Shown here: positions 7,624 to 62,719 of the stretch, piece after piece
Position numbering within the stretch: the first letter of the stretch is position 1
How the letters are laid out: each line of letters opens with the position of its first letter
Source of the DNA: Lantana camara
Lineage: Eukaryota > Streptophyta > Magnoliopsida > Lamiales > Verbenaceae
NCBI GenBank assembly: GCA_037501455.1
Contig: CM074862.1
Location: forward strand, 54,281,501 to 54,345,500
Direction: 5' to 3'
DNA length: 64,000 nucleotides
The notes under the pieces: model-generated
The model's database searches: none
The model's input: the letters and a program-made list of their open reading frames with translations, nothing else
What the model was told of the DNA's origin: nothing
Position numbers and translations under genes: made by a program

Positions 7624-8375
7624 CGTTTTTCTTGGTCTGTTCTGCGTCTTCCTGGGGCTGCTGCTGGCTGCTGTTTATGTATATCTGTGTGTGCATGAAT
7701 GTCTGTTGCTGCTGTTATAATTGTGCATGGCTGTATGTATATATAATTGGTGTTGTGTATGTGCATGAATTGGTGGAGTTATGCATGCATGGGTGAGTTT
7801 ATGTGTACGTGTATATATATATATGTTATATATATTATATGTTATTACATGTTATATATTTGTTATGTTAATATATGATTATATATAATTATTATATTAT
7901 ATGTACAATTATTATATATTTCAAATATTATTTGATTTAATTCAATTTTCGAAATTTATTGATTTCCATTTCCCGTATTTAATTATCGACTTTTGATTGA
8001 ACATTTTATTTATGTTATTCCTAAATGTGAATATGAATATTGTATGTTATGCTTAATAAATGAATTTTAGATTAATTGTTATGCATTATGAATGTTATGA
8101 ATGTTATGAATTTAGGAAATTTATATGAACATATGAATTTATGAAATTATGAAACTGAATGATATATATATGAACGAATGAGTTGATTATATGTTTTAAA
8201 TTTCTTAATCGTGCACATGAACATTTTTTTTATGCATTCATGTCATATTCACCTCATTGTCGAGCGTCATATGTGGTCATTGAGTCTCATACCTTTTCTT
8301 TTGCACAGATTCGGGTTTGGTCGGAGACGAGGACGAGCATTGAGACGTTTGTGCCTTTATTTTGCCTTGGTAAAG

Positions 8376-9116
8376 GTGGGTTTTTCTTCTACTAGTTAAA
8401 CAACCCTATAAATCCCTTATGTGCAAAGTTTTAAGCCAAAATAATATATTTATATAAATCGAGTCATTTTGGGTAAATGATTTCAAACGTATGACCCCTT
8501 TTTAATTATGAAACCCTACCTTATGTTTTGGCGAGATTGCATATATGTTATGTTCACGGGCCCCGGGACTTAGTATATGTGGCTAACCGAGGAAGCAAGG
8601 GCTGACGGGGATCCCATATACTAGTTCCAACCAAACTACGGTGATACCGGCCCTCGCTAGGAGATTTAGCGAGGAATGGGAGCTGAGTGCCCTTGGGGGA
8701 TTCATGTACCCCCATTGGCCTACGTATGAACCGGTGGCAGGGTCTAGCTAACCCTTCCACCATCCGGAGGAAGAAGGTGTATATGTATGATTATGATCAT
8801 TTATGTATGTGCACGAAAGATATGTATGACAACCAATAATTATGATATGATTACACGAGAAGAAGGTTGGAGATTGTGCACGCTCACTCGCCGAACTTAA
8901 ACCCTTATGAACAATTATGAATGAATATGAACGTCGTAATCCCGTTGATGTTTTCTTTTGTTTTAACCACTTGGTAAATTCTTATCAAACTTCACACGGG
9001 ATTAGGGCTTGCATGTATGTGTTTAAATTATGCGATATTATATATCTTATACCCCGTTTTTATACCCAACAGTCTCTTTTAGACTGAACCCGGTTGTTTT
9101 CAGTTGTTTTGTGCAG
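8376..9116 (+). other. Candidate LTR intron in A 3' LTR (741 bp)
   Basis: Donor-like AAAG|GTGGGTTT is at 8375/8376. Stem-loop AGTCT...AGACT lies at 9071-9085, leading into CTGAA. Pyrimidine-rich sequence, TTTTCAG and GTGCAG|G (9116) follow. Conserved blocks GGGCCCCGGG, GGAGGAAGAAGG and CTCACTCGCCGA lie between. Splicing has not been shown. Confidence 0.5.
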
Positions 9117-13050: not shown

Positions 13051-13857
13051 GAGGCCAAGACGCATTTCATTCCTTGCTCAATGTTGTGTTAACAACACCC
13101 TTTCTTCTCTCCCTCTCCCCCTCTTTGCCGTCGGCCACCCCCCCACTAGAGCTAGGTTTGTTTTATTTTATGCTTTAGTTTATGTAATGTTTTAGTTTAG
13201 TTTATGTTTTATGTTATGGTATGTTTATATTATGTTTAGGTTGGGTCTTAGGGTCTTCCCTAAGCCATATAGGATTTTATTTTATGCATTTGTTATAAAG
13301 TTTTCATGATATGTTTTGATAGTTGTTTAAATGTTTTAATTGTTTAGTATATGCTTGAATATGTTATGAATTGCTCTAGTATATGCTATGATCATGTGAT
13401 ATGATTGTTATATTATGAGAATTGATGCATGATTATGGAATTTGAATTATGTTCATGCATGCACTGGAATAGTGATTTACAATTTATTATGTCACAACTT
13501 GTTACATGTTGATATTGGAATTAAATTGTTACATGTTACATGCGCAAAGGTTCATGATATATGATATGATATGATATGATATATGTTGTGACATGTTGTC
13601 ACATTGTTATATGCTTCTTGAATTATGAATTGAGCTTTTCATATGATTTGGATTAATAGATTAGTGCCTTGATCATATGTTATACACTTTAATAGTGTCA
13701 CATGTTATAACCTAAGAATAAATAGTGTTTCATAACTTGATCTTATGCCTTAATTGGATCTCTTAACTATAGGTTATACCTTTAACCTAGATCACACTTG
13801 ATTACATTAACATGAACTTGAAACTATAGGTTATAATCAAGATCATAATTTAATTAG

Positions 13858-14025
13858 GGTGTGTGTGTGTGTGCATGCCGTGTGTGTGTGTGTGTTCGTG
13901 CATGGTGTGTGTGTGTACCGTGTGTGTGTGGGTGTGTGTATAGTAAGGGTTTGACCCGACCCTTTGACGCGATATGTGAATAGTAACCTGTGAATAGTAA
14001 TCTTGAATAGTGCTTTTGAATAGTA
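13858..14025. repeat. Interrupted (TG)n tract and TGAATAGT repeats
   Basis: 13858-13940 is TG-rich with three GCATG/CCGTG-type interruptions. 13975-14025 holds four copies of (T)GAATAGT(A). The same pair of features occurs in solo LTR J near 30460-30560, so they belong to the LTR family rather than being random microsatellites. Confidence 0.8.
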
Positions 14026-14756
14026 AAAACCAATTAAAACTTGTGATTTCTTAATAGATATTTGCACCTAGGGTTTCCATATCCAGGGTCTAAAATGTGT
14101 TTTCTTTCGTGGACTTGTTTCTTAACCTAAGGTTTGCGATAGGATTCATAATTTGACTAAAGCTTACTCGGTTATAGTAAGATCATAGTCTAACGTTAAG
14201 AGTAACTCACTTTGACGTATTCCTTTGTGTGTTACTTTTCTTGAATACCTTAAATGGTATTACTCTCTTGTGTTACATGTTCTTTACATGTTCCTTGTTC
14301 ATTGTTTCATGCATTTCATATGCATCTTGGTTGTAGTGGGTCTTAGTTCTTAAGCTCACTCTAGTACACCACCTACAGGAGTTAAAGTTGAGCATTGGGA
14401 TCCCCAGGGCACCGCATAATCTGTCTACCTGCCTTTTGTTACTATTAGGTGAGGTGAAGTTATAAATGTTTTCCAACGGGAACCACGATTATACTATCGT
14501 ATCGTATGTTTTGAAATTCAAAGCTAAACCTTGTTTTGAACTATCCCTTTTATCGGGACATTCTCTTGAAAGGATCCTTCATACTTTAATAGTGTACCTT
14601 GATCTACAGCACATGTTTTCCAAAGTTTTGCATTCTTGTTCAAAGACAGTTACATGTTTTGCATACGTTTTCAAAGTACAGTTTACAGACAGAATCACAT
14701 GTTTTCAGACAGAACCATAAGTTTTACAGATAGCATCAACTATACAAATCCGCATG

Positions 14757-17132
14757 CAAGGGTAGGTATACTCACATGCAAGGGTAGAAATCCGCATGTA
14801 AAGGCCATAGGTCGCATAACTATACAAAATCCTAAACCTCACCTGAGAAGCGACAAGACACAGGAACTGAGAAGACGGATGCCTACTCGATCACGTTGTC
14901 CCCACCCTGGAGATTACTGACAGAAGAGGAAACACGAAGTATACATGAGACATGACTCAGACATGAACTACATAGACGCACGACAATGTTCATGGAATGA
15001 CGTGAACTGATATGAAACATTAAAACATGTTATGGAGGTGTTCATGTGTACAATTAATGTTCCACAGAGTAAATAAACAAGCATTGAGTTCATATACACG
15101 AAATAAATACATGATCGAAGACGATAAAGAGTTTTCAGACAAGTTATAGAATTAAACAAGAGTTATATTATGTCAAGTTTGTTCACGCCCAATCACCCTT
15201 TGCACAAATTCAAGGATTGGTCATGTTATAAACATTAATTTATTGAACAATTAAAAAAGTTCCCTTTTAAATTGTAAGACTTTGCTTTAGTTTAATGGTC
15301 AAATAATATAAACCAAGACAATTAAATTATGATTGGTTCACCTTAAATTTTATTGACCAAATATAAAACCATCTCTTATTCTAGAAATGTTAAAAGCATA
15401 GTTTATGCCCAAAACACAAGATCTCAATTAATATACATAAACCTGTTGATCCCACAGTTTACAAATCATCAAGCATCCTCAGTTCAAGTCAACCATGTAA
15501 CAATTCAAGCAACAATTTCAAGTTAAAAGCTAAGGTTAAGTTCTGAATCCCAAATAACATATTATCGACCCACCAAGCACGTACTTAGAGAAATGAACAT
15601 ACACACATTCATATAATACAGTTATTGTATAACATTTAGTTACTCAACTCTCGATTCAATCAAACATTTATAAAGTAACAGCTATACTATGTTGATCAGA
15701 CCCAATTCACGAACTAAAAGTTTCATTTACAAACCCAAGTCAGAAATCTAACAAATCTGATTTAGTAAGTTACAGACAATTAATCCGCCATTTAAAATTT
15801 AATTAGCTATGGTTGAAATTATACAATTTCTCAAGAAAATAACCATGATTTATTATCTCAATCACCAAACACATCCAGATTCATTCCAATCAACAAAACC
15901 CGAGATTCTGCATTAATAAGAACTCGTTAAAACATAAATTACAATTGAAATTACACGATTATGATGAAATTAAGAATAAGAATAGGGGTTTTACAATTAA
16001 AAAGAAGCAGTAGTTAACGGTGATCGGTGAAAGGGGGTTGGACTACAATTGTTGATGTTGCTCTTCTTGGTTGGTGGCAGCGCCGACGAAAATCATGGCG
16101 GTCGGCGGTAGTCCCCTTTAGGATCTGCGGGAAGTGTCGGTGGAGCTGAAATTGTGAAGTTGGTTGTTTGCCAGATTTGTTGCCAGACCTGGATGGAGGC
16201 GATGGCGGCTCTCGGTGTCTCTTCTCTCAGATCTGGAAAGAGAGAGGGGATCTAAGTGGTGGTTGTTCTCCGGGATTGTGGCCGAAGATGAATGGCAGAG
16301 ATAGCAAAAGTGGTGGTGCTCATGCCGGAATCAGGACCGGTGGTGGTGCGGCAATAATATGAAGGTGGTATGGTTGAGGTTTCACCGCCAGGAAGAATGG
16401 TGGTTGATTTAGATTTCTAACATGGGACAGAGAGGTTAAGGCAAGGACGGCGGAAGGTTGGGACAGCGGCGCTGCTGGGTTCCTTTCTTGGCGGAAAGAC
16501 TTGAAGCGGTAGTGGCTCTCGGTTGACGCTGCTGGAGGGTGGCTCTGCCGGGTTCCTTTCTTGCAACAGGTAGCGAGATGATGGCAGAGGTGATGGTCGT
16601 GGAGGGCTCGCGGCGGTAATTTGATGGAGAAAAGTTGCGCCGCTGCTGTCTCTTCTGGAAACCGAAATGGGAGAAGGGGAGAAAGAATGAGGAGCAGCTA
16701 GGGTTCTCGGTTTAAGAAGGGATCAATTCCTCCAAAATTGCGATTAAGCCCCTCAAGAACTTAGCTGATGCGATTGAGTCCTCAAAATTCAATTAGGGTT
16801 CAAATCGATCCAATTAGAAATTTAGACATTATAAAAGTACCCCAAGGATTTAAAATGGTGTCCAATCAAGTCCAATTGAGTTTTTCAAAATTAGAAATTG
16901 ACCCCCAAAGTTCAATAATTATAATTTATCCCACATAATTCAAATTAAAGAGCAAATAGGTATTAAACACATATTTCAATTAAGTCCACATATTTTCATA
17001 AGGTTGCAATCAAGTCAATTAGACTATTAAAACATAAATAAGGCAATTCAAGCACAAGCAGAGTTAAATAAATAACAATCTAATAGCACGAAAGCGACAT
17101 CGTATCTTGCTTCGAAAATGAGGGGTGATACA
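14757..17132 (-). repeat. C 3' LTR, truncated
   Basis: It matches about 23592-26038 nearly base for base with scattered changes. On + it ends GGGGTGATACA at 17132 (minus-strand LTR start TGTATCACCCC). The outer ~1.3 kb (R/U5 end) is missing where it meets element B. A GC-rich stretch at about 16010-16710 ends, on the minus strand, in a pyrimidine-rich leader beginning AACCCTAGCTGC, which looks like the transcription leader. The + strand frame at 16168-16362 is not a gene. Confidence 0.9.
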
Positions 17133-19094: not shown

Positions 19095-19968
19095 CTGCAA
19101 ACTCAAAAGAAAGGGAAAAGGGGAAAAACAACAACGAGGGTTAGTCCTAGCGACTAGTGAGGGGGCTAACTCACGCACCCGATATATATGTATATAGAGC
19201 AAAAGCATTTAATCAAAACGGAAGAATCCTCGAACCGAGAGTGGTTTTTGCAAGCTAAAGTAGTTTCCATGATATAGATATACATAGGTTAAAGGAAAGG
19301 TACAAGGCCAAAAGCCAAACTCCAAGTTTTAGGTAAATTAAGAATCCACTCTCGTTCCATAGATCATACAGAGCTAAACCAACTTGGCGAGTACGAGCCA
19401 CACACATCCCCACTTCCATATACGAAAATCAAAGCAAAACAAAACAAATCAGAATCCATCCCCAACACCGGTTGATAGAAGGGTTGATCGGCCCTAACTA
19501 TCCACATACACAGACGAGACAAGGTTTAATTACTACCTTGAAACCTTCGGCAGTTGCCTCCATCGGCTCAAGAGAAACACCCTTCCTCAACCTCCCAAGG
19601 TTGGGCGAGACTCTCAAATGGAGGTGTTGATGGAAGAGCTCGGCGACCCCTCGGTCGTCCCGAGATTACCATACCACACTCCGGGGCCCAAACATATCAC
19701 GAAAGTCACACAACCATATCTCAAAGCTTATCTTTCAAAGCCACATCTCGCTTACACCCACACACACTTCCACATAACTAAACTTTTCAAACGAAATCAA
19801 AATAGCTTATATACTTATACAAAACGTTTTAAACTCTTATAACAAATGGGGCAAATCGCGCAACATAAGTATCATACACTTATTTACCATATATTATACG
19901 TACCCACATGCGAGGTTTCAAATGAAATGGGGTTATAGGTCGAGTACCTAAAAGAACAAAAACCTCAC
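19095..19968 (-). other. Candidate LTR intron in S (874 bp)
   Basis: Minus strand donor CAAG|GTGAGGTTT at 19969/19968. Stem-loop TAGTC...GACTA at 19142-19156 runs into CTAAC. Acceptor TTTGCAG|GTTC at 19097-19095, followed by a GCTAGTCGG variant of the exon box. Confidence 0.55.
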
Positions 19969-22805: not shown

Positions 22806-23674
22806 CTGCAAACTAAAAGATAAAATGATGTGTCAGTCAACGGATTGAGTGAGGGGGCTAACGCACACCCACAATATATGTATACAGAGCATAGCACAAA
22901 ATAAAAGGATGGACTCATTAACCGAGGATAGGTGTTGCATACCAAAACATTTTGAAAGAACCCAAATAGATATAGATATAAGTTTAGAAACCATTTTCAG
23001 AAAGACTCTATACCGATTAATAATTTCATAACATAATATAATCAACTGCTCGGCGAGTACGAGCTTCTAACCTCAACTCCTCATAAAAAAGAAATAACAT
23101 ACCAACCTCAAATCTGGGTGATGGTAGGGTTGCGCGACCCTAACCATCAAAACAGGCGAGGGGAGTGCTAATGGTACTCCAACCCTCAGGACTCCGTTTC
23201 CCAACCAAATCCCCTGGTGCGTCCCGGTACATCCTCTTAATACAGATGGAGACTACGCAATGGATAAATACCCCGACGGCCCGATACCGTCCCGGGGGAC
23301 CCATTACCCGTAGCTCCTGGGCCTCAGAACAGAACGAATACCTTATATCATGGCCAACTCACTACAGAATCATAACACAATTGAATTTTCCAAAATAGCT
23401 TACATATGCCTCAAAAACTGGTTTTTATATTTATTCCCACGCTGCAGGGATATAGCCCGAAGGCACCCGCCCACGCAGGACACACGCACGTACATTCCCA
23501 CGCTACAGGGATATAGCCCAAAGGCACCCGCCCACGCAGAATGCAAGCATAAGGTCATAAACCTATCATATCCAACACATACATTTCTATAATAAGGTAT
23601 ACTCGCATGCGAGGGTAGAAATTAGCATGTAAAGGCCATAGGTCGCATAACTATACAAAAATCCTAAACCTCAC
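22806..23674 (-). other. Candidate LTR intron in C 5' LTR (869 bp)
   Basis: Donor CTCAG|GTGAGGTTTAGG at 23675/23674 is a near-perfect plant 5' splice site. The stem-loop CAATC...GACTG (22834-22847, one mismatch) runs into CTGAC. Acceptor TTTGCAG|G ends at 22806. GCTAGGCGGA (exon side, complement of 22779-22788) pairs with its inverted copy at 22431-22440. Confidence 0.6.
23434..23541. repeat. 61-bp tandem duplication in C 5' LTR
   Basis: The unit beginning TTCCCACGCTGCAGGGATAT (23434-23494) repeats from 23495 with a few changes (GCTACAGGG, CCCAAAGG). The second copy is truncated after about 47 bp. It lies inside the candidate intron. Confidence 0.85.
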
Positions 23675-26038: not shown

Positions 26039-27265
26039 AGCGGGAAATTCTATTTTTAGTCTATCACACGGGCGTCTGAGTTTTGAACTAAGTGATGAAA
26101 TGCCCGTTTGGAGTTGCAGGGGAGGGTCAGTAGCTGTTCACATGGGCGTTTGGTGTTTGTTCTGAGTTTACAAACGCTAGTTTAGGATCTCTCGGTTTGA
26201 GGCAGTAGCTTCGGAAACGCCCGTGTGGTTTCCTTTTGAAAACCCTACACGGCCGTTTCGTAGGCCACTGTCCGTTTTTGAGTTTTTTTACTTTTTAGGT
26301 TTGATTTCTTTGCTTCCTAATTGCTCTTATATGTCTTCTTTGATCGTTAATTTGTTACTTTTACGTCGTTTAATCTGTTTTGCATTAATGTGAAATTTTG
26401 GTGGATTGTATGACATTCTTTGCATCTCATGCATTCTCTTCTTTTGCAATGCATCGTTTTGGTTCATTTAGAGTCTAAGTCTTGGGGTTTTGGTGTTTCT
26501 TTTCAGAGGAGGTTCCCGTTGACGAGCCCGAGACCTAAGCTTGTCTTTCCACACTCCTACTTTTGCCAAGGACAAGGTGAGGTTTAGGATCTGTATAACT
26601 AACGACCTAACGCCTTTATGTGATGTTTTCATGCAGCGCATGCGAGTATATTATATATATATATATGTAAATATGTGTTATATATGATATGTTCATGATC
26701 TAGCGAACCAATCTTGTTTTGAAAATGGTATTATGAAAGCTTACATAAGCTAGTTTCCAAAGCTTATCTCGGTTAAGTTTTGTAGCGAGATTGCCATGAA
26801 AGATTGGTACGTTTGTTTCTGTATATGTGTTTGTGGATCAAAGGAGACATGGGTAAGGAGCCCTCGGCACGGTGTTGGGCCGTCGAGGTAAAGCCTGTGC
26901 ATAGTCTCCATCCGAAATATCATACGCGACCCTGGGAGATAGAGAAGGTATGTTATTATGATGCCTCTAGGGTAAAATCCGGGGAGGACACGTTGTGGAT
27001 TAGCAACCCCACGTGAGTTTGTTTAAGTTTAGATAGATGGTTTGAGCTACGCACGTGGCTCTTCCATCATCAGAGGAGAGGTTGGATTTATTTATGATTT
27101 CTGTTTCCGATATTATATGAGAAGGAAGGTTGGAAGCTCGTTCTCGCCGAGCATGTGTGTTTGATTTGTTATAGGAAGTATGAATCGGGATAGCATTTCG
27201 AAAAGTACTCTAAATGTAAGTAAGTTGGTTTAAAGTGATTTTGTTTGTAAAACCTATTCCGGTTT
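26039..27265 (+). repeat. K LTR, first fragment
   Basis: A (+) LTR fragment starting where C ends and stopping where I inserts. Identified by LTR landmarks: degenerate CACGGGCGT hairpin sequences (26065-26265), donor GACAAG|GTGAGGTTTAGG at 26576/26577, and TTGGAAGCTCGTTCTCGCCGAGC near 27130. The landmarks most resemble the C LTR read in reverse. The beginning of K is missing, probably lost with the left end of C. The 70-codon frame at 26804 has no recognisable product. Confidence 0.75.
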
Positions 27266-29150: not shown

Positions 29151-29854
29151 CTGAAATCATGCATTTTAAAAATAGGCGAGAGGGTTAGTCAAAGTGACTA
29201 AGTGAAGGGGGTGTAATAAATTATAAGTATAAATATATGTATATATATATTTATATAATCAAGAAGATCTTGATCAAAATATTGGCAATAGGATATAGCA
29301 AATAGGGAACGGTTCATAATATTTGTAAAAATAGGGATAGGGGTATTTGGAATATTTGCAGAAATAATATGAACAGTTTGTAACAAGAACTTGAATGCCC
29401 GCAAGCTAGGCCTCTCCATCCGTAACTCCTTAAATCATGATAAAATAGTAACAGCGTTGATCAAGACACCGATACTTCAATAAAACCAATAAGACAATAA
29501 CTCCGCTACTCCTTGGTGTCAATAGGGGAGCCAACCCTAGAGACCATGAACTAGATTCGGGAGGCAGCTATCTCTCCCTCATCCCTTGGCGTGGAGTAAC
29601 TAACCTCCAGTTAAACCACTACGAAGAGGTGGTGGCAGTCCGCAGCACCAACAATACCCTCGGCCCGATACCTTCCGGGTAATTGCTCGCTGCGGTTACA
29701 GCCGGGGCCCATAACAGGAATCGAGAACAATATTTTGCTTGCATAACCCGGAATCAATGTTTTGATAAAATGGACTTGAAATATATAATGTTCTAGAAAA
29801 ACGTTGATTCCGGCAAGAAAGTATTTTTCCCTTAAAAGGGATAGTGTAGTAAAG

Positions 29855-29894
<40 letters not shown>

Positions 29895-29985
29895 GTAAAT
29901 CAACATGATGGGTAGGCTTGAAAATAGTTTTTATATAGATACGTATGTATGGCATGATTCCAGTTGAAAACATTTTAACCCTCAC
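29151..29985 (-). other. Candidate LTR intron in J (835 bp)
   Basis: Minus strand donor ACTCG|GTGAGGGTT at 29986/29985. Stem-loop TTAGTC...GACTAA (29185-29201) runs into CTAAC, a strong plant branch-point match, 31 nt before acceptor ATTTCAG|G at 29151. Confidence 0.55.
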
Positions 29986-35037: not shown

Positions 35038-38000
35038 TGTAGCACCCTAAACCCCAAGGCACTACATCCCCCGCACTATAGCCCGTTCCACAAACGAAAT
35101 GGCAATCCGTACATATAGGGAACGGGTGACAAGCAAGAAACAATCTACCTAGGCGGGACTAAACCCCAATTAAACCAAAACCAAGACATGAAATTCAAAA
35201 GCGGAAGCATTATATCATCAATACATATATGTACAATATTTACATCAAAAGTATATATACTAGTAGGTACCAACATTTATCAACATCTCAATTCTCCGAA
35301 AGATAACTAAATAATCATAACATGCTAATCTCGAATATAAGTACATGGAAATGAAATGCTAGACTCGACCGAATGCAAGACCTGACTCAAACTCCCGCCT
35401 AGCACGCCCATGTGTACCTAAAAAGTGAGGTGTCAATCTACCGAAGACTGAGTGAGGGGCATAAATAAATATATATAACACAATTCACATGCAAGTTGTA
35501 GCCTCGGGTGAAGATTTGGAAAGGAAAAGAAATATAAGTCTCAAGAAAAGGCTCTTCTTCACCGGAGATTATCACTATCAAGTTCAACATGTTAATTTAT
35601 CAATCTCATGCAATACGTGGCCCGGCGAGTGAGGGCAATTCTCCAACCTTTACACCAAACATGAACGATACATGCTTGCTTGAATGATTTAATACGTGAT
35701 CATGCAATTCAATTAGCAATACAATCAATGAGCGGAGACATGCAACAACCCGAGGACAATCCGTAGTGCCAGACCCGTCCCCAGTCTCCTTCTTCCTCCG
35801 GGTGATAGTGGGTTTGCAAGGCCCAACTATCCACGACATGGTGTACATCGGGAACATGGCTCCCACGCACGAAACTCCTTCCACCCCCAAACCTCCTGGT
35901 GGCTTCGGGGGTGATCCCAAAGTGGTGAGGATAGCACAAGAGTTACCCGTCAGCCCTTGTTTTCCTGGTTGGCTCAAGCCACTACCCTCGGGCCCAAAAG
36001 CGCAATCATGGTACTCGCCAAAACATGCTTGAATCATGAACAATCATGGCTTGCTTGCTTGAAATTATTTATATTTTGGAAAACGTTTATAAATATAATA
36101 GGTTTTGGCCAAAAACTCACATAAAGGTTATAAGGGTTCTATGTAACTAGAACAAAACCTCACCTGTGCGACAAAATATAACAAGGATACGCTCTAGGGA
36201 GCCTGCTCATCGTCTACGGCCTCGTTATCTGTGCACACACGACGTGTATACGTGAGACTTGACTCAAAATGGACCAAATATGACGAACGAAAATGCAACA
36301 AGATGACGAGCAATGAACAATGTGGCATGAAAATATCTTGTTTTAGCATGTAATTAATCATATAATAGCAATTTGGGATCAAAGAAATCATTGGAGCAAA
36401 ATGTGACATTTGTAGATATTAATGCAGAAAATTTTCAGCATGCGCACGTTGTATTCAAATAAGCATAACTCCTTCATCGGAATGAATTTTAAGGAACCAA
36501 AAAATTCCTAGAAAACTAGACAAACATATCATTACAACGATGTGAGGCTCAAATTCTAGTTCACCCCGAGTAAATACCAGTTTTTGTTTGAATATGACAC
36601 AAAGCAGAAAATTTCCTGCAACGCTATTAGTGAAAGATGATCGTCGTTCCCTTACCAAACAAAGTCGAAACGATATGAAAATTGGTGGACATACTTATAA
36701 CATACCCAGAAATGCACCAGTAAAACAGTTTTAAAAACATCCACCATTTAGTCTCTCTGATCAAGCCAAAACCGAAATATGAAAACAGGGGACAGCAGGG
36801 GATGTTGCTATTTTTCTCGGGGCTCAAATGAAATCGGATTGGCACCAATTTTTGAAGAGAACATCTAAAATATATCAAGAATATCCCTATAAAACAGTTT
36901 TGAAAAATTCCAATTCGACAAGCCACAATTCACTTTCAAATTGGGTTAGCGCAGATTCGCGACTGTTTGGCGGCACCAAATTAAAACGGCCATAACTCAC
37001 AAACGAAAATAGATATTGACGAACCGTAAAAAGGAGAGTGCTTTACACTTCGAATACTTGTTATAGTAGAAAAATCAGAGGAATTCGAGCAAGGGAGGGG
37101 TGTCGGGAAAACAGGGGAAGGATAGAAAATACTTCTCAAACTATACCAACACCAAACCAAGGCAATTAAATTGCTTCAAACCATCATATATCATGCATAT
37201 ATGTTGAAAGTATCACAAAATACAAGATAAAAAATCAAACCATGCTTGATCATCAAGATTTCCCCCCTTTATAGTTCATATAAAATTCCATCACATAAGC
37301 TCAAGTTTTGCAAGAATTCCTGAATCAAATCATGGTATAATCATATATTCATGTCTCTAACAAGCCGTAATCCATAGATTTCATGAAATTTCAAACCCTA
37401 GCTATCATGAAATTCATCAAGGATCATGAATTCAACCATACACCCACCTTGAAGCGAAATAAATGGAGAAGGCAGACGAAGATGATGATCAAGCTTCAAA
37501 ACTATGAAATTCTCTTGGAAATCTTGACGAAAATTTGATGAAATCTTTTCTCCCTTTTCTTGGATGAACCGTAGCAATGGAGAAGCAAATATATTGGTGA
37601 TTTTGGGATGAAAGTGATCTAGAGGCATGGAGATGGTTTATACCGTGATTCATCACATTTTGAAATATGTGAAATGCTCAAATTGCAATTTAGTCCTCCA
37701 ACTTGGTAAGTCACGCAATCAAGTATAAATGGTTTGCTAAATGATCAATTATGTCCTTGGAGAAGTTATGCAATTTGATCCTTAAATTTAAAGAAATGAT
37801 CATGTAAGGACAATTAAATCACTTCCGGCAATTATTTCACGTAACAATTATTTTCCAAGTCATGAAATAATTTTCTCAATGATATGAGTTCATATGATTC
37901 ACATAAATATAATTGTATGCAATTTATAAAATTTATGATGACATGTAGGAGAATAAGAGATAATAAAATAAAATAAAATAAGTTCCTAATGCTCACAAGC

Positions 38001-41850: not shown

Positions 41851-43251
41851 TGTAGCACCCGGAACGCTAGGCGCCACATCCCCCGCACTACAGTCTCAAT
41901 CCCCATATGAAACGAATAATCCATACATGAACCGAAACTATAGCGAATGGGAGACAATAAAAAAAAAAAAACACAAGGCTAGGCGGGTACCCTCAATTAA
42001 AACCAAAACAACTCAGAGCAATAAGATAGCGGAAGCAAAAGCATTCAATACATATAGGTACCATATTTACATATTTACTTATAGGTACCGACAATTCATA
42101 TCATTACAATATCAATCCCAAGTATAATTCAAGACATACTACAAAATAAAATAGTATCATCACAAGTACAATGTATGAAGGTGCAGTGCTAGACCCGAAT
42201 AAAAGACAACGAGACTCTAATTCCTGCCTAGCACGAACCTGCAAAGCTGAAAAGTTGAGGTGTCAGTCCAACACGGACTGAGCGAGGGGTATAAATAAAT
42301 ATAAGCGCACATACATGCAAGTTATAATCTCGGGTAATAATTTTGGGGAAATAACAGTACAATTTAATAAAGCAAAAGATACAATAGCCCGAGGTTACAA
42401 CTAATTCAGTTTATTAATTTAACAATTCAATACAATCAATTGTGGCCTGGCGAGTGAGGGCAATTCTCCAACCTTACTCCGACTGTGTACAATCAATCAA
42501 TCAATTGTTCAATAGTTAGGTGATCATACAATTCATTACGGTGCACAATTAGCAGTTTCAGTCCATCCTTCTTCCTCCGGGTGATGGTGGGATTGCAAGG
42601 CCCCACCATCCAATCAGTCTGGGCAGAGGGTAAATGAATCCCTAAGCCCGGAACTCCTTCCTCCCCTAATCTCCTAGGGGGTTCAGGGGTCATCCCAATT
42701 TGGTGAGGATAGCACTCGAGTTACCCGTCAGCCCATGCTTTCCCGGTTGGCTCGAGCCACTATCCTCGGGCCCACAGTGCAATATAATACTCGCCCAAGC
42801 AATCAATCAATCAATCAATTCCGTCAATAGCTTGAAAAATCATTTGAAACCCAATCTAATTTGAAAACTACAATATATAGATAAGTTTTAGCTTAAAACT
42901 TCACATAGGGTTATACGGGTTCTATGTATCTAGAATTAAACCTCACCTGAACGACCTAAAACAAACAAGGAAACAACTCACGGGGCCTACTCCTCGTCAC
43001 CAAGAAGCTGGTCTCTGCAAGAAAGACAATTGTCCGTGAGACACGACTCGAAATATACCAAATAGGACGAACGGCGATGCAATGATCATGATATGAATAT
43101 GTAAAAGACAAGATTATGTTCATGCGCACTATTAAGAAATTAAATCATATGTTCAAGTCATTCACTCATTCATTCAATTCATTCGAACTCACAATTAGGG
43201 AATAAACAATTAAATATAGTCAATTAAACCAAATAACAATTAATATATAAC

Positions 43252-47993: not shown

Positions 47994-49376
47994 TGTAGCA
48001 CCCGGAACGCTAGCCTCCACATCCCCCGCACTACAGTCTCAATCCACATATGAAACGAATAATGCATACATAAACTGAAACTATAGCGAACGGGAGACAA
48101 TAAAAAAAAACACAAGGCTAGGCGGGTACCCTCAATTAAAACCAAAACAACTCAGAGCAATAAGATAGCGGAAGCAAAAGCATTCAATACATATAGGTAC
48201 CATATTTACATATTTACTTATAGGTACCGACAATTCATATCATTACAATATCAATCCCAAGTATAATTCAAGACATACTACAAAATAACTAGTATCATCA
48301 CAAGTACAATGTATGAAGGTGCAATGCTAGACCCGAATAAAAGACAACGAGACTCTAATTCCCGCCTGGCACGAACCTGCAAAGCTGAAAAGTTGAGGTG
48401 TCAGTCCAACACGGACTGAGCGAGGGGTATAAATAAATATAAGCGCACATACATGCAAGTTATAATGTCGGGTAGTAATTTTGGGGAAATAACATTACAA
48501 TTTAACAAAGCAAAAGATACAATCGCCCGAGGCTACAACTAATTCAGTTTATTAATTTAACAATTCAATACAATCAATTGTGGCCCGGCAAGTGAGGGCA
48601 ATTTCCAACCTTACTCCGACTGTGTACAATCAATCAATCAATTGTTTAATAGTTAGGTGATCGTACAATTCATTACGGTGCACAATTAGCAGTTTCAGTC
48701 CATCCTTCTTCCTTCGGGTGATGGTGGGATTGCAAGGCCCCACCATCCAATCAGTTTGGGTAGAGGGTACATGAATCCCTAAGCCCGGAACTCCTTCCTC
48801 CCCTAATCTCCTAGGGGGTTCAGGGGTCATCCCAATTTAGTGAGGATAGCACTCGAGTTACCCGTCAGCCCATGCTTTCCCGGTTGGCTCGAGCCACTAT
48901 CCTCGGGCCCACAGTACAATACAATACTCGCCCAATCAATCAATTCCGTCAATAGCTTGAAAAATCATTTGAAACCCAATCTCATTTGAAAACTATAATA
49001 TATAGATAAGTTTTGGCTTAAAACTTCGCATAGGGTTATACGGGTTCTATGTATCTAGAATTAAACCTCACCTGAACAACCCAAAACAAACAAGGAAACA
49101 GCTCACGGGGCCTGCTCCTCGTCACCAGGAAGCTGGTATGTGCAAGAAAGACAATTGTCCGTGAGACACGACTCGAAATGTACCAAATAGGACGAACGGC
49201 GAGGCAATGATCATGTTATGAATAGGTAAAAGACAAGATTATGTTCATGTGCACTATTAACAAATTAAATCATACGTTCAAGTCATTCACTCATTCATTC
49301 AATTCATTCGAACTCACAATTAGGGAATAAACAATTAAATACAGTCAATTAAACTAAATAACAATTAATATATAAC

Positions 49377-51383: not shown

Positions 51384-51616
51384 ACTGAAATCAAATTACT
51401 ACACATGCGTGGTTGATTAATAAATGCAAATGTGTGCAAATAATTTCATAGGATCGATAAAGCACACGTTTAAAGAATCAAGTAGCTCAATTAATTCAAG
51501 AGTTCGAGTAAATCACATAATTCAATTAAATGCAAGACTCTCAAGTAACAATTAATCCTATACCGTGCGACCTAGACTCACAAGACACGACTCGAGAACC
51601 TCGATTTTGCAACCGG
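51384..51616 (-). other. D 5' leader
   Basis: Non-coding leader between PBS and gag. The post-PBS block CGAGTCGTGTCTTGTGAGTC..AGGTCGCACGGTATAGGA matches those of E and H. Confidence 0.7.
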
Positions 51617-52017: not shown

Positions 52018-52774
52018 CTGAAAAGTGAGGTGTCAGTCTACCGAAGACTGAGAAAGGGGCATAAATAAATATATATAACACAATTCACATGCAAGTTGTA
52101 GCCTCGGGTGAAGATCTGGAAAGGAAAAGAAATATAAGTTTCAAGAAAAGGCTCTTCTTCGCCCGAGATTATAACTATCAAGTTTAACATGTTAATTTAT
52201 CAACCTCATGCAATATGTGGCCCGAGGAGTGAGGGCAATTCTCCAACCTTTACACCAAACGTGAACAATACATGCTTGCTTGAATGATTTAATACGTGAT
52301 CATGCAATTCAATTAGCGTTCAATTAGGAATACAATCAATAAATGGAGACATGCAACAACCCGAGGACAATCCGTGGTGCCAGACCCATCCCCAGTCTCC
52401 TTCTTCCTCCGGGTGATAGTGGGTTTGCGAGGCCTAACTATCCACGACATGGTGTACGTCGGGAACATGACTCTCATGCACGGAACTCCTTCCACCACCA
52501 AACCTCCTGGTGGCTTCGGGGGTGATCACAAAGTGGTGAGGATAGCGCAAGAGTTACCCATTAGCCCTTGCTTTCCCTGTTGGCTCAAGCCACTACCCTC
52601 GGGCCCAAAAGCGCAATCATGGTACTTGCCAAAACATGCTTGAATCATGAACAATCATAGCTTGCTTGCTAGAAATTATTTATATTTTGGAAAACGTTTA
52701 CAAATATAATAGGTTTTGGCCAAAAACTCACATAAAGGTTACAAGGGTTCTATGTCACTAGAAAAAAACCTCAC
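52018..52774 (-). other. Candidate LTR intron in D 5' LTR (757 bp)
   Basis: Donor GCACAG|GTGAGG at 52775/52774. The perfect stem-loop CAGTCT/AGACTG at 52034-52050 runs into CTGAC. Acceptor CTTTTCAG|G ends at 52018, about 15 nt from the branch-point-like A. Confidence 0.6.
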
Positions 52775-54251
52775 CTGTGCAACAAAATAGAACAAGGATA
52801 CGCTCTAGGGAGCCTGCTCCTCGTCTACGGCCTCGTTATCTGTGCAAACACGACGTGTATACGTGAGACTTGACTCAAAATGGACCAAATATGACGAATG
52901 GTGAAAATGCAACAAGATGACGAGCAATGAACAATGTGGCATGAAAATATCTTGTTTTAGCATGTAATCAATCATATAATAGCAATTCGGGATCAAAGAA
53001 ATTATTGGAGCAAAATGTCACATTTGTAGATACTAATGCAGAAAATTTTCAGCATGCGCACGCTGTATTCAAATAAGCATAACTCTTTCATCGGAATGAA
53101 TTTTAAGGAACCGAAAAATTCCTAGTTTTCGTTTACAATGATGTGAGGCTCAAATTCTAGTTCATTCCGAGTAAATACCAGTTTTTGTTTGAATATGACA
53201 CAAAGTAGAAAATTTCCTGCAGCGCTATTAGTGAAAGATGATCGTCGTTCCCTTATCAAACAAAGTCGAAACGATCTGAAAATTGGTGGAGATACTTATA
53301 ACATACCCAGAAATACACCAGTAAATCTGTTTTAAAAACTTCCACCATTTACTCTCTCTGATCAAGCCAAAACCGAAATATGAAAATAGGGGACAACAGT
53401 GGATGCTGCTATTTTTCTCCGGTCTCAAATCAAATTGGATTGGCACCAATTTTTGCAGAGAACATCTAAAATATATCAAGAATATCCCTATAAAACAGTT
53501 TTGAAAAATTCCAATTCGACAAGCCACAATTCGCTTTCAAATTGGGTTAACGCAGATTCGTGACAGTTTGGCGGCACCAAATTAAAACGGCCATAACTCA
53601 CAAACGAAAATAGATATTGACGAACCGTAAAAAGGAGAGTGCTTTAAACTTCAAATACATGTTATAGAAGAAAAATCAGAGGAATTGGAGCAAGGGAGGG
53701 GTGTCGGGAAAACAGGGGAAAGGCATAAAATAATTCTCAAACTATACCTACTCCAAACCATCATATATCATGCATATATGTTCAAAGTATCATAAAATAG
53801 AAGATAAACAATCAAACCATGCTTGATCATCAGGATTTACCCCTTTCTAGTTCATATAAAATTCCATCACATAAGCTCAAGTTTTGCAAGAATTCCTGAA
53901 TCAAGTCATAGTATAATAATATAATCATGTCTCTAACAGGCAGTAATCCATATATTTCATGAAATCTCAAACCCTAGCTATCATGAAATTCATCAAGGAT
54001 CATGAATTCAACCATACACCCACCTTGAAGCTAAAGAAATGGAGAAGGGCGATGAAGATGATGATCAAGCTTCAAAACTATGAAATTCTCTTCGAAATCT
54101 TGATGAAAATTTGATGAAATCTTTTCTCCCTTTTCTTGGATGAACCGTAGCAATGGAGAAGCAAATATGTTGGTGTGTTTTGGATGAAAGTGAACTTGGA
54201 CGCATGGAGATCGTTTATACCGTGATTCATCACATTTTGAAATATGTGAAA

Positions 54252-55870: not shown

Positions 55871-56281
55871 GAAGTGTTGGAACATCATGGTGATAAACTC
55901 CTCGACATTCAAAGATAGACGAGGATGTGATTGAGAAGGTTGGCCGCAGTTTTGTGGACGTGGTGGCCTCCTGAGAATCTCAAGAATTACAATATAGAAT
56001 TAGTAAGTGCAAATGTCACATAATTAACTTAATTAAGAGAAATCAAGAAGTATGGTGCATCACGTAATATAAAATCGGCAAAAGATAGAATTTCAAATGC
56101 ATAGCATGTTAAACAGTGATGCAAATACGCACATAGTCAAATTGTCCTATGTCGTCCGACCTAGACAGAAACACCATGACTCTGAACCCCGATTTTGTAA
56201 CCTGGGGCTCTGATACCAATTAAGATGTACCACCGCGCACGAAGGGATACGACATCCCCGCACCTAGACCCAATCCACATG
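55871..56281 (-). other. H leader, primer binding site and 5' LTR stub
   Basis: PBS complement TGGTATCAGAGC at 56207-56218. The leader carries GTCTAGGTCGGACGACATAGGA. The LTR on + starts TGTACCACCGCG (56226) and is cut at 56281 by element G. The ORF called at 56225 is LTR sequence. Confidence 0.85.
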
Positions 56282-56538: not shown

Positions 56539-57690
56539 TTGGCCCGTTCTTCCGACTGTTTTTGCGTACGAGGACCCGAGATATATACCCCGAATCCTCG
56601 TTTTGTGTGCGACAACTTCAGCTCCAGCCTTAGGGGTCTTCCTCCCGCGATCTGGCACTATTCACATAGTGGAGGTGTGAAAACACACACATGTCCGTTC
56701 TCACTCGTTTCTCGACGGAATTCGACGTTTGAGTAGTGGAAATTTATCAACTCGACGAGCCCGACACGATGGTACAAGAATCATAGCCTGAAACTCAGCG
56801 GTGGTGGTGCTACGGCAGAGCAGCGGCGACGGAACGGACCCCCGCCACTTTGCAGCCTTTCGCGGCAGTTTCCGGCGACCATTCGACGACACGTACCACC
56901 CCACCTATTAGAGGACATCCCGGCGTAACTCCAGTGCAAGCGGCGTGGCCAACGGTGGCCGAACGGCCGCGCACGCGCCGACTAAAGACCGGTGGCGGTG
57001 GCGCGTGCAATGTAGCACCTCGCTCCGCCGCGTTCCGCCGAGATTCGCGGTCGGCCTTTGGTGGTTTCCGACGTATTTTGGCCTCCTGAGTCCGATTCCG
57101 GGGTCGGTTTGACCAAACGAAGGCCAGAGGTGGCTGAACCGGCAAGTAGCGCACCGGTGGACTTTCGGCGGCGGTTTGGGACCTTTTTCCGGCCGGTTTT
57201 GGTGGTGGCTCCTTCACGAAAATTGCATAGAATGATGAAACTTACCTGATGGCGTTGGCCCCGACTTCAGAACCGGTGGTTGGCGGTGAACCGGTGGCGG
57301 ACCGGCCGTGGAGCGGCGGCTCTCTTTTCCGGCGAATTTTCCGACAATTTGGTTAGGGGCTTTCGAAGGCCTCGCTACGGGCTTTCTAATGGTATGTTCG
57401 GATTTCATTTTCATTTTACGGTTTGTGTTGAATTTCAGTTTTCGTTGTTAGGATTTAGTTCGTTTTTTTGTCAACAAAGTCCGGCATGTTTTTAGTATTT
57501 TCGGAAATTGGTTGAGGGCTTTTGTCGAGCAGACCGAGGCGCAAGTTTCTGTCCTTCCGGGGAATTTTCCGACCACCGAAGGTGGTGGTCCGACTGCTGT
57601 ACGTGGCGGTTCGGCTGGTTCCGGTGGCGGCGGAACGCTGCCCTTTGGACAGCAAGTTCCTCTTGTCGTGGTGAGTCCAACACCACTTTC
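56539..57690 (+). other. GC-rich leader region of G LTR
   Basis: About 1.1 kb markedly richer in GC and CpG than its surroundings, with CCGGCGAATTTTCCGAC-like sequence recurring at about 57330 and 57555. Several 60-135-codon frames are open on both strands, but none shows a domain, and their overlap is a composition effect. It lies where the transcribed leader is expected. Confidence 0.55.
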
Positions 57691-58573
57691 TGTACGTCAA
57701 TCGGGTGTCTGGTTGATTTGTTGCGATTTATTTTGTATAATTTGAATAAATAAAATTAATTGTTTTGATTGCTAATTGCTTGATTTGTCGATCGAATTAT
57801 ATTCCAATGTGAACGAAATCATGTATTAAATGAAATATGAAATGTATTGATGCTTTGATTAGCAATTTAAATTCCGATATGTCAAATTTGAGCTATTTAT
57901 CTAACTTGAAGGGGGTATATGTGTAATTTCGCTATACATATAAATTGTATGACTTCAATTAATTAATCCTTGTGGATTGATAAAACAAATATGCTAATTA
58001 TGATTTCGATTAAGAGAAATTATTATGCCTAAGCTTGAAGCTTTTTAATTAGTCTAATCACTTAAATTGAATTGGAATTTATTATATGATATAAGAATTT
58101 ATTATGCAATCTATGATTTATCAAGAATTGAATTAGTATATCTTGGGTGATTTAATTTAAAACTTTGTAATTTAGGTTTAATTACTTAATTTAAAATAAA
58201 CTTATTATGCGATATATGAATTGGTTATTTGATATATGAATTTATATGAAATAACTTGACATGCATTGCCTTTTCATTTTGTTTGTTTGAATTAATTGTG
58301 CATAAGAATATCTCTTGATGTGTTTTATGAATATATTGAGTTATGTGATATTTTATTTTGCAAGTAATTAGTATGAATGTGAACTTTGCTTATGTGATTG
58401 CATTTCTTAAGTGCTTGAGCATGTGCCGTGCGTCTTATATAGTTGTCTGAGTCTGAGTTCTGTACTGTGTTTTGTGTGTTCAGTTGGTATAGGTGCACCC
58501 GGGGTGGTGACTTGTGGTCGTGCAGGTTCCGGGGTGGACCATTTGCTTTGAGTTTGGCTTTGTCTGGCACCAG

Positions 58574-59437
58574 GTGAGGGTCTTTTCGATCTAGTTACAT
58601 ACTAAACCCTACAACCCTTATGTGACAAGTTTTGGACAAAACCTTATGTATGTATATATATATATATATATATGTTATTTTCAAAGCGGAGTCATCGAGT
58701 AACCTTTTCCCCAAAATTATGAAATATGTTATGTTTCTTATGAACTGGAATGTTTTGGCGAGATTTGTTATGTTCACGGGCCCAGGAATTTAGTACATGT
58801 GGCTATCCGGGGAGGCAAGGGCCGACGGTGATCCCATTTGCTGATTTCATTTATGTTTAACGACGAAACGGATCTCGTTAGGAGTTTTGACGAGAAAATG
58901 CTAGTCGGGGTTTTGAGGATTCATGTACCTCACTAGCCATTATGTATGAGGTGGTCGGGTCTTGCTAACCCTTCCACCACCTGGAGGAAGAAGGTTGGAA
59001 CTTATTTTATAATTATGTTTATGTTATGACATGGTTGTGCACCGTGCGGGAAGGCCGGGATACAGATTTCCCAAACGATTATGTCTTATGTTATATGACT
59101 TGCATGTACTATGATATATTGCATAATCACTTATTCAAATGTATTATTGCTATTTGTTGTACACGGTCGGAGTTTGGTTGGAGATGATGCACGCTCACTC
59201 GCCGAGCCTTTATGTTTATGTATGAATTATGAACTTAATGAATTTAATATGATTAGTCGTAAAGTCCTACCATTGCTTAGCTATTCTCTTTCCCTCTTGG
59301 GAACTAACTTTAAATAAAACTTTACTCGGGATTTATGACTTGCATGTGCATGTTTTGATATATATTTATCGCTCCTACTCGCTCAGTCTTCTAGAGACTG
59401 ACCCTTCCCCTTCTTTTCCACTTTTCAGTTCTTGCAG
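58574..59437 (+). other. Candidate LTR intron in G (864 bp)
   Basis: Donor CACCAG|GTGAGGGTC at 58573/58574. The perfect stem-loop CAGTCT/AGACTG at 59384-59400 leads to CTGACC. A 30-nt pyrimidine-rich tract precedes TTGCAG|G at 59437. The exon box AGCTAGGCGG follows at 59443. This is the clearest + strand example. Confidence 0.6.
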
Positions 59438-60030: not shown

Positions 60031-61596
60031 CATTGCATTCGTGTGATGTGAAATTTTAACTTCTCTGCATGAATTTGTCTGAGCTTATGTGATTGTGTGC
60101 ACACGATGATTACGATTTTTTTCAAAATTATCACTGTTATGCTTCAAATTTTATTAAATTATGTACTGCATCTGCATTACTTAAGTGTTCTTAATTGCTT
60201 TTATTACTTGACATATCCACGTACTAACCCGCATGCATAGATATTTGTTCAATTTGGGAATTGCAGGGTGACATCTCGGTACCAAATTGTAAACGATCGT
60301 GACAATTCTTCCCACTTCTGCAAATCTTTGACAGGAGATTCAAAGCAGCCATACTCTAATGAGAGACAATGGACCTCTACAAGAATTCAAAACAAGGAAT
60401 CAATGCTATCATTATGAAAATGGGTATTATGCATTCATAGCACGTGCATCATGTATTGGAGTAAATTTTAATTATTTCGAACATTTGTTCTACGTGCTTG
60501 ACTGCCTTCTTTGTTGGATACGAGTGCATGCCATTTACATCCCTAACCCCACATGCATTAGACTTGTGGTTATATTTAGGTGACTTTGTTACCTGTTCCG
60601 ACGAGTACTGATTTTAGTGGAAGCTGCTTTGGGATCTGAATAGGGGTGGATCAGAAAGTGTACAGTTGATTTAACAAACTCAGGGTATAGGGTGGATAAA
60701 ATAAGATGTCTGTATACAAGGGAAACAAGAGACCTTTTAACTATCAAGGTGCCTTCAGGATATGTACTTACTAGTTGGAGGTGCTCGGGAGTAACATGTT
60801 TTATATGAAAGCCAGACTTTCTAACTCTGAAAGGCGTGAGGTGACAATGAAGAAATCAAGGCACTTGTACCATTCCAAAAATTCCAATTAGGGAATCGGA
60901 TTACTATTATAAAGATAACCACCAGAGTTGTTACACTTACACAATAATTTTGTGCCGAGGTCATTGAAGATCAACTCCACCCAATAATGAGGACAAGGAC
61001 ATCATTTACAACGAGGGTGTATGAAGCGAGACTGTTTAAAGATTCTTCATGTATCTCTCCACGATTATGCTGAGAGATTTTTACCGTTGAAAGAAATAGC
61101 AATTCCCGATTACCGAGGATTTTATTGGGATTTCAAGAGATTCCACGGATCACTATACTCCGAGAATCAAGTGAGATGGTCCAAGACCATTTTGGTACCC
61201 GAGAATCTGAGGGAATACTAAAGAATGCAAGTTTGAACGAAGGGTTGGGACCACTGCCAGTTAAGGATTTGATTATCCTTCCAAATTAAAGAATTTCCAA
61301 CCTCGACTTCATTTGCACGGTGAACGGTACCTTAAGCATTCATGGCATTTGCACCCATGCATTACATAAGTAATTATATTTTATCTTGCTTGACATATGT
61401 CACAAAGTGTAATGTTTGATGTTGCTCGATTGTAATAGCGTGACTAACTGCTTTAATTTTCATAACTTAAAGTTTGTTGTTGTGAATTCTTGTAAGCTGA
61501 ATGGATTACATGCTTGCGTGAACTATTTGTGCTTCATTGCTTATAATTTCTTTGGTTACTCACTAACCCTTCATGCATATACAAGCATATTGTGAT
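60031..61596 (+). other. G internal region, no recognisable gene
   Basis: 1.57 kb with only short frames. The longest credible one, 61021-61221 (66 codons, MKRDCLKILHV...), has no motif I recognise. A FYWDFKRF stretch does not match gag, RT or integrase. The texture (GAAGG, CAAGG, GAATC runs) resembles the E interior. Confidence 0.5.
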
Positions 61597-61997: not shown

Positions 61998-62719
61998 CTG
62001 CAAAGAAGCTGAAACAAACCGGGTTCAGTCTATACGAGACTGGTGGGTATAAAATGAGGTATAAATAGCGTATACAACAATATTTAACATTCACGTGCAA
62101 GTTATAATCCCAAATGAGGTTTTTAGAGCATTTCCCAAGTGGGTAAAATAAAGAAGTCATCGAAAGGGATTATAACGTTCATTTTCATTCTTTAGGTCTT
62201 TTGTGGCCCGGCGAGTGGGCTTGCATTATCTCTAACCAACACCTCGTGTAGTTCATTAAACATTCTTTCTTTCTTTCTTTCATTAATGCATAACATTATT
62301 TTGAGCACATTCATGAACTTTTATACCTTCTTCCTACGGGTGATGGCCGGGTGATCGGCCCGAACCATCCATTCATTGACCAAAAGGGGAACATGACTCC
62401 CCAGATGGCACTCAGCGTCCATTCCTCGCTAACTCCTAACGAGGTCCGGTTACGCCGTTCATTGGTTGGACTAGTGTGAGGGATCACCGTCAGCCCATGC
62501 CTCCTCGGGTCACCACTCACACCAAGTCCCTGGGCCCCATTCTGCGCATAACATTCATTCTTTTCTCGCCAAAACATTTGGTAGGTTCATAAAATAAAGG
62601 CTTTACTTTGAAATCATTTACTCTTAAAACGACTCTATATACATATAATAAATTTTGGTCGAAATCTTTACACATTGGAAGTATATAGGGTTGTTTAACT
62701 AGATAGTAGAGAAACCCAC
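61998..62719 (-). other. Candidate LTR intron in F (722 bp)
   Basis: Donor GTTCAG|GTGGGTTTC at 62720/62719. The perfect stem-loop CAGTCT/AGACTG at 62026-62042 runs into CTGAA. Acceptor CTTTGCAG|G ends at 61998. Confidence 0.55.

Follow-up and report, generated by a model that had tools for sequence, protein, structure and literature searches.

Conserved splice-site chain in the long terminal repeats of nested Ty3/gypsy elements of Lantana camara suggests a spliced 5′ leader

Most of a 64-kb window on contig 8 of the Lantana camara genome (positions 54281501-54345500; genome size 1.27 Gb) is made up of nested Ty3/gypsy retrotransposons, all of one kind. Here, we describe a conserved chain of splice sites in their long terminal repeats (LTRs) that probably serves to splice the 5′ leader of the element RNA. 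The chain consists of exon 1 ending in a donor (D1), intron 1, and a short exon 2 that begins at a 3′ splice site (A1) and ends in the focal donor (D2), which would be joined either to an acceptor within the LTR (A2) or to an acceptor at the gag AUG (A3). The order of these sites, their conservation, the distribution of ATGs around them and the covarying hairpins in intron 2 are established from the sequence. An initial annotation of the window had proposed a single conserved leader intron whose splicing could separate mRNA from genomic RNA; the ranks of the sites, the branch point, the depletion of ATGs and the held-out copies speak for this idea, which needs to be changed in that several introns are present instead of one, gag may be the main partner of D2, intron 2 is structured, and the presence of a TATA box is restricted to fewer families.

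Results

Families were assigned letters by LTR similarity; A-F and J are labelled as in the initial annotation, S being its G, K its S and G its K, and names such as A5 or E5 and E3 or D3 denote 5′ and 3′ LTR copies, respectively. In family S, the focal pair consists of the donor AG↓GTGAGG at 58573/58574 and the acceptor TTGCAG↓G at 59437/59438 (arrows mark splice junctions), 864 nt apart. Such pairs had been annotated at similar spacing in most LTRs, and we obtained the same values for S and for A (741), C (869), D (746 and 757), E5 (695), F (722), J (835) and K (874). The second spacing given for E, 698 nt, holds to the first of two tandem AGs in E3, with 708 nt to the second; for G, with 798 nt after removal of an insert, donor 26577 and acceptor 34177 were both found, separated by that insert. 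B has a donor only (14449) and is truncated ahead of any acceptor, as had been noted. The GT is intact in all 14 donor copies (10 families) and the AG in 11 of 12 acceptor copies (9 families), the exception being A5, which reads CTG. The branch motif expected upstream of the acceptor was recovered in 12/12 copies, with the A of CTGAC, CTAAC, CTGAA or TTGAC 15-46 nt before the acceptor position. With a GT donor, an AG acceptor, a branch point and a pyrimidine tract, the segment has the sequence features of a putative U2-type spliceosomal intron.

Matches to the donor pattern with up to 2 mismatches numbered 57, compared with 27.8 in shuffled sequences, and in a 10-family alignment around the donor with a mean column identity of 43%, AGGTGAG was the best conserved of 193 seven-column windows (89% identity). 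Of the 138-297 GTs per family, none matches U1 better than D2 in 6/9 families (ties counted); in the remaining A, J and K, D2 ranks 3rd, 5th and 6th. In all 10 scored intact copies (9 families), A2 is one of the three top-ranking AGs, the ranking being based on simple weights, with D3 left out and G scored over its right part only. A combined hairpin/branch/3′-site pattern, composed after the sites had been seen, matched the 12 LTR sites and nothing else in the 64 kb, compared with 0.42 matches in shuffles; in A5 the match ends at a later TAGG. No conserved donor was seen downstream of A2 upon inspection by eye.

This pattern, fixed on the window beforehand, was applied to the 100 kb on either side as a held-out set and gave 27 matches in these 200 kb compared with 1.5 in shuffles. 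Six of the 27 belonged to an unrelated repeat (CAGTCCACAG) and were removed after inspection. For 18 of the 21 sites left, AGGTGRG[GT] was present 550-1100 nt upstream on the same strand, compared with 1/21 in the downstream interval and 0/21 on the opposite strand, and this donor was the top U1 match of the interval in 13/18 (two tied). The 60 nt ahead of the held-out donors contained 3 ATGs in 18 windows, compared with 203 in 90 and 264 in 126 neighbouring windows. An acceptor 50-100 nt before the donor exceeded the 90th percentile of random intervals in 17/18 copies, and the stretch that it bounds contained 4 ATGs in 1347 nt. These 18 copies do not represent 18 independent families, as several are close kin of each other or of window families and one is possibly the second LTR of the S element. 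Among all 264 kb, no copy of a D2-A2 spliced form was found with 61 junction probes (the best had 7 mismatches in 40); this, together with the retention of the introns in the LTR copies, fits replication from unspliced RNA.

The exons differ sharply from their surroundings in ATG content. Exon 2 (10 families) contains 1 ATG against 19.5 expected and exon 1 (7 families; starts estimated as TATA+30 or as 120 nt before the donor) 3 against 23.4, and 0/10,000 random placements were this low in either case, those for exon 2 being made in the same LTRs. The introns and the region from A2 to the LTR end have 28-36 ATGs per kb. There are 67 ATGs in the 2807-nt unspliced leader of D and none in its exons 1 and 2, and the stretch from A2 to gag contains 18 ATGs in 634 nt in D and 19 in 829 nt in S. 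This is the imprint that would be expected of ribosomes scanning exons 1 and 2 only, and since these exons are poor in ATGs and the rest is rich, joining of D2 to A3 would be preferred over D2-A2 for the Gag message. The GC content of exon 2 is 50.6%, above that of random placements (P 0.0002).

Exon 2 of A, D, G, K, J and B, and also of C and E, contains short, often acidic frames with different stop codons at a similar place. We considered exon 2 as a coding exon and found no support for this: mean pairwise BLOSUM62 scores are about equal across the three frames (11.1, 11.7 and 11.3), and the estimated exon 1 provides no AUG in A, D, J, K and S.

A pyrimidine-rich YAG 60-90 nt upstream of each D2 bounds exon 2 on its 5′ side. 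Farther upstream, six families (A, B, D, E, J and K) have a D1 (mostly CAAG↓GT), and S has a weak one; its U1 rank is 1-3 in 5 of 8 families scored. The donor had been placed downstream of a TATA box in B, D, E and J; a strict TATAWA within 300 nt before the exon-1 donor was found in B, D and J and is missing in E, as it is in A, K and S. At the other end of the chain, a YAG sits beside an intact gag start codon in A (GAACAG↓GATG) and D (TTTCAG↓TATG), and the same 3′ site occurs in S and in the element whose primer-binding site (PBS) lies at 56218 (termed PBS-56218) at an apparently decayed gag start, with TACTAAC and TACTAAT upstream, respectively. Among the post-PBS open reading frames (ORFs) of at least 100 aa in the window and its flanks, 6/9 have a first ATG with a YAG no more than 2 nt away; as a window-wide baseline, a YAG lies within 1 nt of 61 of 2788 ATGs. 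The clean cases are A, D and a held-out element at right +27337, which probably also carries A3, there at the first AUG of a post-PBS ORF.

Some further features were noticed near these sites. A donor-like AG↓GTA is present at LTR nt 27-30 in D (54689, minus strand), K (21512, minus), S (56311, plus) and A (~5884, plus) and might allow splicing in the 3′ LTR. A and K have in common a block of ~100 nt upstream of exon 1 with a tRNA-like or SINE-like (short interspersed nuclear element) appearance (~6430-6540, plus, and ~21110-21220, minus). Splicing of Pol into the LTR was considered and rejected: the D and B frames continue past the polypurine tract into the LTR and that of A stops before it, and by our reading only D meets a phase-matched donor.

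Intron 2 contains RNA hairpins at conserved places. A hairpin CAGTC-N(4-7)-GACTG that ends at the branch A is common to nine families; J and K have the variant TAGTC/GACTA, C has one mismatch and G one G-U pair. In the alignment, 51/54 cells are paired, compared with at most 31.5% in slid controls, and 3/500 shuffles reach both the pairing and the covariation score; 2/6 pairs are compensatory, with 5 compensated cells, a count reached by 12/500 shuffles. As bare hairpins, these stems are unusual (P < 0.05) in just 4/9 families, and the unusual part is their position at the branch motif, found in 7/9 families compared with ~1% in shuffles. For a second hairpin, aligned in 11 rows (two of them from sister LTRs), 85.5% of cells are paired and 10 are compensated (0/500 shuffles); in one slid control, 73.6% of cells were paired and 6 compensated, and we regard this evidence as good but not overwhelming. 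Across 33 sites in the window and flanks, the strict pattern of the second hairpin occurs in 19 and exactly complementary arms in 13. RNAalifold predicted 18 of 29 pairs with two-sided change for intron 2, at a modest -10.0 kcal/mol, and the intron of S, the sole one folded individually, gave a z score of -4.3 (0/20 shuffles). Judged by these alignments, intron 2 is more than a spacer and holds covarying RNA structure. A possible long-range stem between GCTAGGCGG just after A2 and CCGCCTAGC ~60-190 nt before the LTR end was supported in A, C, G and S (P ≤0.03) and unsupported in D, E, F, J and K (P 0.06-0.86). Intron 1 of A, E and K contains repeated palindromes GACACGGGSGTGTC, candidates for repeated RNA hairpins, whose flanks vary and mostly remain complementary (CCGTG/CACGG, CCGAG/CTCGG, GGTG/CACC).

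The LTRs of the elements are 2.6-3.7 kb long, start with approximately TGTAAC and end with approximately GGGTGCTACA, followed by TGGTATCAGAGC. The pol pieces match gag, protease, reverse transcriptase (RT)-RNase H and integrase in Pfam, with scores above the cut-off for Retrotrans_gag in C, RVP_2 and RT_RNaseH in D, SH3_Tf2-1 in D and A and a zinc-binding domain in A; Retrotrans_gag in D lies just under the cut-off, and the matches to the integrase core rve in D and A are both below it. A C-terminal chromodomain (PF00385) reaches 25.5 bits in A, with a cut-off of 25.1, and stays below it in B (21.6) and D (14.3). This domain set together with the chromodomain would place the elements among the Ty3/gypsy chromoviruses, and, going by LTR and pol features, they are probably of the Tekay/Del type. 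The organism-named relatives of one RT-RNase H piece were plants, at no more than ~63% identity, among the 120 matches listed. There was no match in Rfam, no relative in IMG/VR via the integrase or via the LTR-end pattern, and none in GTDB genomes via the LTR-end pattern.

Other repeats lie in or beside the elements. A different LTR family, TGTGACACCC...GGGGCATCACA, is inserted in G at 27268-34069 (approximate, delimited by eye) and itself carries J; besides J's own site, the hairpin/3′-site pattern has no match in this insert. At 44557-44761, a 29-nt tandem repeat with seven units is located shortly ahead of the E 3′ LTR.

Table 1 Positions of candidate exons, introns and splice sites in the 64-kb window
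Feature	Position	Strand	Basis
S intron 2 (focal), GTGAGGG...TTGCAG	58574..59437	+	donor U1 rank 1/297 GTs (tied with one other); acceptor rank 1/157 AGs
S exon 2, 90 nt, ATG-free	58484..58573	+	3′ site GTGTGTTCAG↓TTGG, rank 10/157
S candidate intron 1, weak donor GTG↓GTGAGTC	57671..58483	+	U1 rank 7/297, chosen by eye
S branch hairpin CAGTCT/AGACTG, ends at branch A	59384..59402	+	stem and branch motif
S 3′ splice-site-like TTGCAG↓G, TACTAAC upstream, apparently decayed gag start	60261..60266	+	sequence scan
D 5′ LTR exon 1, ATG-free, start estimated from TATAAA; donor CAAG↓GTGGGT	54024..54190	-	U1 rank 3/193
D 5′ LTR intron 1	52840..54023	-	between D1 and A1
D 5′ LTR exon 2, 65 nt, ATG-free	52775..52839	-	3′ site rank 14/159
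D 5′ LTR intron 2	52018..52774	-	donor rank 1/193, acceptor rank 3/159
D A3-like TTTCAG↓TATG, one base ahead of gag ATG (51383)	51385..51390	-	rank 16/159
D 3′ LTR intron 2	35418..36163	-	donor and acceptor
A 5′ LTR exon 2 (LTR cut by window edge)	905..971	+	3′ site rank 1/81
A 5′ LTR intron 2, AG decayed to TG	972..1712	+	donor intact
A A3-like GAACAG↓GATG at gag ATG (2347)	2340..2345	+	rank 3/81
A 3′ LTR intron 1, donor CAAG↓GTAAGT	6852..8308	+	U1 rank 1/246
A 3′ LTR intron 2, after exon 2 at 8309-8375	8376..9116	+	donor and acceptor ranks
B intron 1, downstream of TATAAATA at 13043	13156..14378	+	D1 and A1
B exon 2	14379-14448	+	D2 at 14449, no acceptor (truncated)
C 5′ LTR intron 2; exon 2 at 23675-23748	22806..23674	-	donor rank 1/254, acceptor rank 1/163
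C 3′ LTR (truncated), donor only	14834..14844	-	donor pattern
E 5′ LTR intron 2; D1 CAAG↓GTATATG at 50027; exon-2 3′ site decayed to CAC	48377..49071	-	site scan
E 3′ LTR intron 2; exon 2 at 42947-43014	42239..42946	-	acceptor rank 1/93
F intron 2; exon 2 at 62720-62801	61998..62719	-	donor rank 1/159, acceptor rank 2/105
G exon 2; donor 26577; acceptor 34177 past nested insert	26507..26576	+	site scan
J intron 2; exon 2 at 29986-30045; intron 1 at 30046-30953, TATAAATA at 31056	29151..29985	-	site scan
K intron 2; exon 2 at 19969-20048; intron 1 at 20049-20776	19095..19968	-	site scan
PBS-56218 element, 3′ splice-site-like TCTCAG, apparently decayed gag start, TACTAAT upstream	55971..55976	-	sequence scan
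GACACGGGSGTGTC palindromes	175, 209, 7572, 7606 (+); 49671-49480, 43550-43359, 20482, 20418 (-)	+, -	intron 1 of A, E, K

Discussion

Several observations weigh against a spliced leader or parts of it. The copies are not independent because the families are related, and 3/21 held-out sites have no donor. In a longer 8-family alignment, a shift of two rows keeps D2 from showing up as an invariant run, and over 20 nt other LTR blocks outdo it (up to 0.71 near the LTR end compared with 0.54). The AG of A1 has been lost in E5, where it has decayed to CAC, and A1 ranks only 10th in S and 14th in D. D1 was chosen by eye, with an unconvincing rank of 95/254 in C and ranks of 11 in E and 7 in S; in E3 its GT is changed to GC, and in D3 no D1 could be located. 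The AG of A3 is missing in C, the gag ATG is decayed in S and the PBS-56218 element, and the A3 of D ranks 16th; some of the six ORFs with a YAG at the ATG belong to other LTR families, and one of these ATGs is probably an upstream ATG. For the hairpins, the number of pairs with two-sided change was equalled by 196/500 shuffles for the one at the branch point and by 71/500 for the second, in which 4/10 pairs are compensatory.

If D2 were joined to A2 only, a single LTR intron would be removed and the message would retain U5, the primer-binding site and the whole pre-gag leader. The high ranks of A2 in the 10 scored copies and its coupling to D2 in 18/21 held-out copies are in line with this, but the region between A2 and gag in D and S is, unlike exons 1 and 2, rich in ATGs, and A and D have an acceptor at the start codon of gag; we consider exclusive D2-A2 joining unlikely. 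The main competing explanation is a second promoter beside A2: a TATA-like box 22-45 nt upstream would start the genomic RNA at the hairpin, where R would begin, and the upstream TATA box would give rise to the spliced message. TATAWA at that distance in 5/9 families, compared with 7% of intron-2 windows, favours such a promoter and counts against our interpretation, and the arrangement would resemble barley BARE with its two TATA boxes and separate RNA pools (PMC3735527); in a check for LTRs with two TATA boxes of this type, TATAWA was present near D1 in 3/7 and before A2 in 5/9. However, the polypyrimidine tract, the branch motif, the CAG↓G at A2 and the coupling to D2 would be left unexplained, and we judge this explanation to be distinctly unlikely; a promoter at this place can coexist with D2-A3 splicing.

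The sites could also be real without dividing RNAs between roles, either by forming an intron that enhances expression or by binding U1 and so blocking premature polyadenylation in the 5′ LTR. This would agree with their position near the promoter and with the strong U1 matches, but a motif of intron-mediated enhancement is not enriched (5 against 9.5 expected and 9 against 12.1), and U1 binding alone accounts for neither the acceptors nor the ATG-poor exons, which makes such a role quite improbable. Finally, conserved DNA elements of the LTR or shared ancestry might have produced the similarity without any splicing. The better conservation of 20-nt windows elsewhere in the LTR is compatible with that; yet among the heptamers around the donor, the donor motif is the best conserved one, the depletion of ATGs is bounded exactly by the sites, and the hairpins vary in compensated pairs, and we hold this explanation to be very improbable.

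Related arrangements are known from other retroelements. In bovine leukaemia virus, human T-lymphotropic virus and foamy virus, the major donor lies in the leader or the R region of the LTR, with the RNA for packaging located downstream and an unspliced genome. Retroviruses usually make Gag from unspliced RNA, unlike the elements described here, in which the spliced RNA is predicted to make Gag. BARE1 of barley belongs to Ty1/copia and not to Ty3/gypsy. It also divides its RNA between translation and replication; it has two TATA boxes, about half of the capped transcripts are spliced, and a spliced RNA encodes Gag alone (PMC3735527), but the introns found here precede gag and lie in the LTR and leader. 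Ogre (Ty3/gypsy, Tat) is likewise a partly spliced plant LTR retrotransposon; its intron is positioned between gag-pro and RT-RH-INT (RH, RNase H; INT, integrase; PMC6317226), whereas our sites are in the LTR and at the gag start and do not correspond to an Ogre-type internal intron, the stretch from gag-pro to RT not having been scanned for others. In the Arabidopsis Ty1/copia element EVADE, alternative splicing generates a subgenomic gag RNA by taking out the protease domain and not the leader (PMC12786077). Similar to our elements, Diaspora of soybean (Athila lineage) has five predicted LTR donors 1400-2200 bp before gag-pol and two predicted acceptors flanking the start codon, the relevance of which was left unknown (PMC1142308).

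In searches of the open-licence literature, which do not prove absence from print, we found no described pre-gag or LTR-internal intron of plant LTR retrotransposons; the initial annotation had likewise known of no LTR-internal intron shared by this clade. As of 2005, introns preceding gag were stated to be unreported for LTR retroelements of any kind (PMC1142308), and plant elements are generally without introns, with the exceptions Ogre and EVADE (PMC12786077, 2025). Other arrangements were described in sunflower, where Tekay elements are missing from the expressed set (PMC7730604), and for Cer1 (PMC10309623), and PMC3059260 does not contain the words intron, splic-, untranslated or polyadenylation.

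Splicing itself, the form of the message, the unspliced RNA as genome and the intron structure as a mark are what we infer from these patterns. Transcription from a TATA box, as present in B, D and J, would yield exon 1 with D1, intron 1, the 60-90 nt long exon 2 and D2, which would be joined to A2 or A3. The main Gag-Pol message would be composed of exon 1, exon 2 and gag via D2-A3, with a leader of ~0.13-0.27 kb nearly free of upstream AUGs. This joining would remove U5 and the primer-binding site, so the message would be translatable, yet not reverse transcribable into a full element. The unspliced RNA would retain the primer-binding site and the structured introns and serve as the genome. 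The branch-point hairpin might keep splicing below completion, and the structures of intron 2 might flag the unspliced RNA for export or packaging. More speculatively, the LTR could be a self-contained RNA-sorting cassette in many families of a major plant group, in which one hairpin-tuned splicing decision directs RNA to ribosomes or particles and the introns bear the signals of the genomic RNA; we put this forward tentatively.

How an LTR retrotransposon allots a single transcript to translation and to replication has been worked out for few plant elements, such as BARE, Ogre and EVADE. The exact junctions predicted here can be compared with existing long-read data, and annotation pipelines may mistake such LTR exons for host leader exons. 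If the proposed splicing is true, a conserved multi-intron leader would help account for LTRs of this length, and the gag-pol mRNA and the genome would be different RNAs in these elements.
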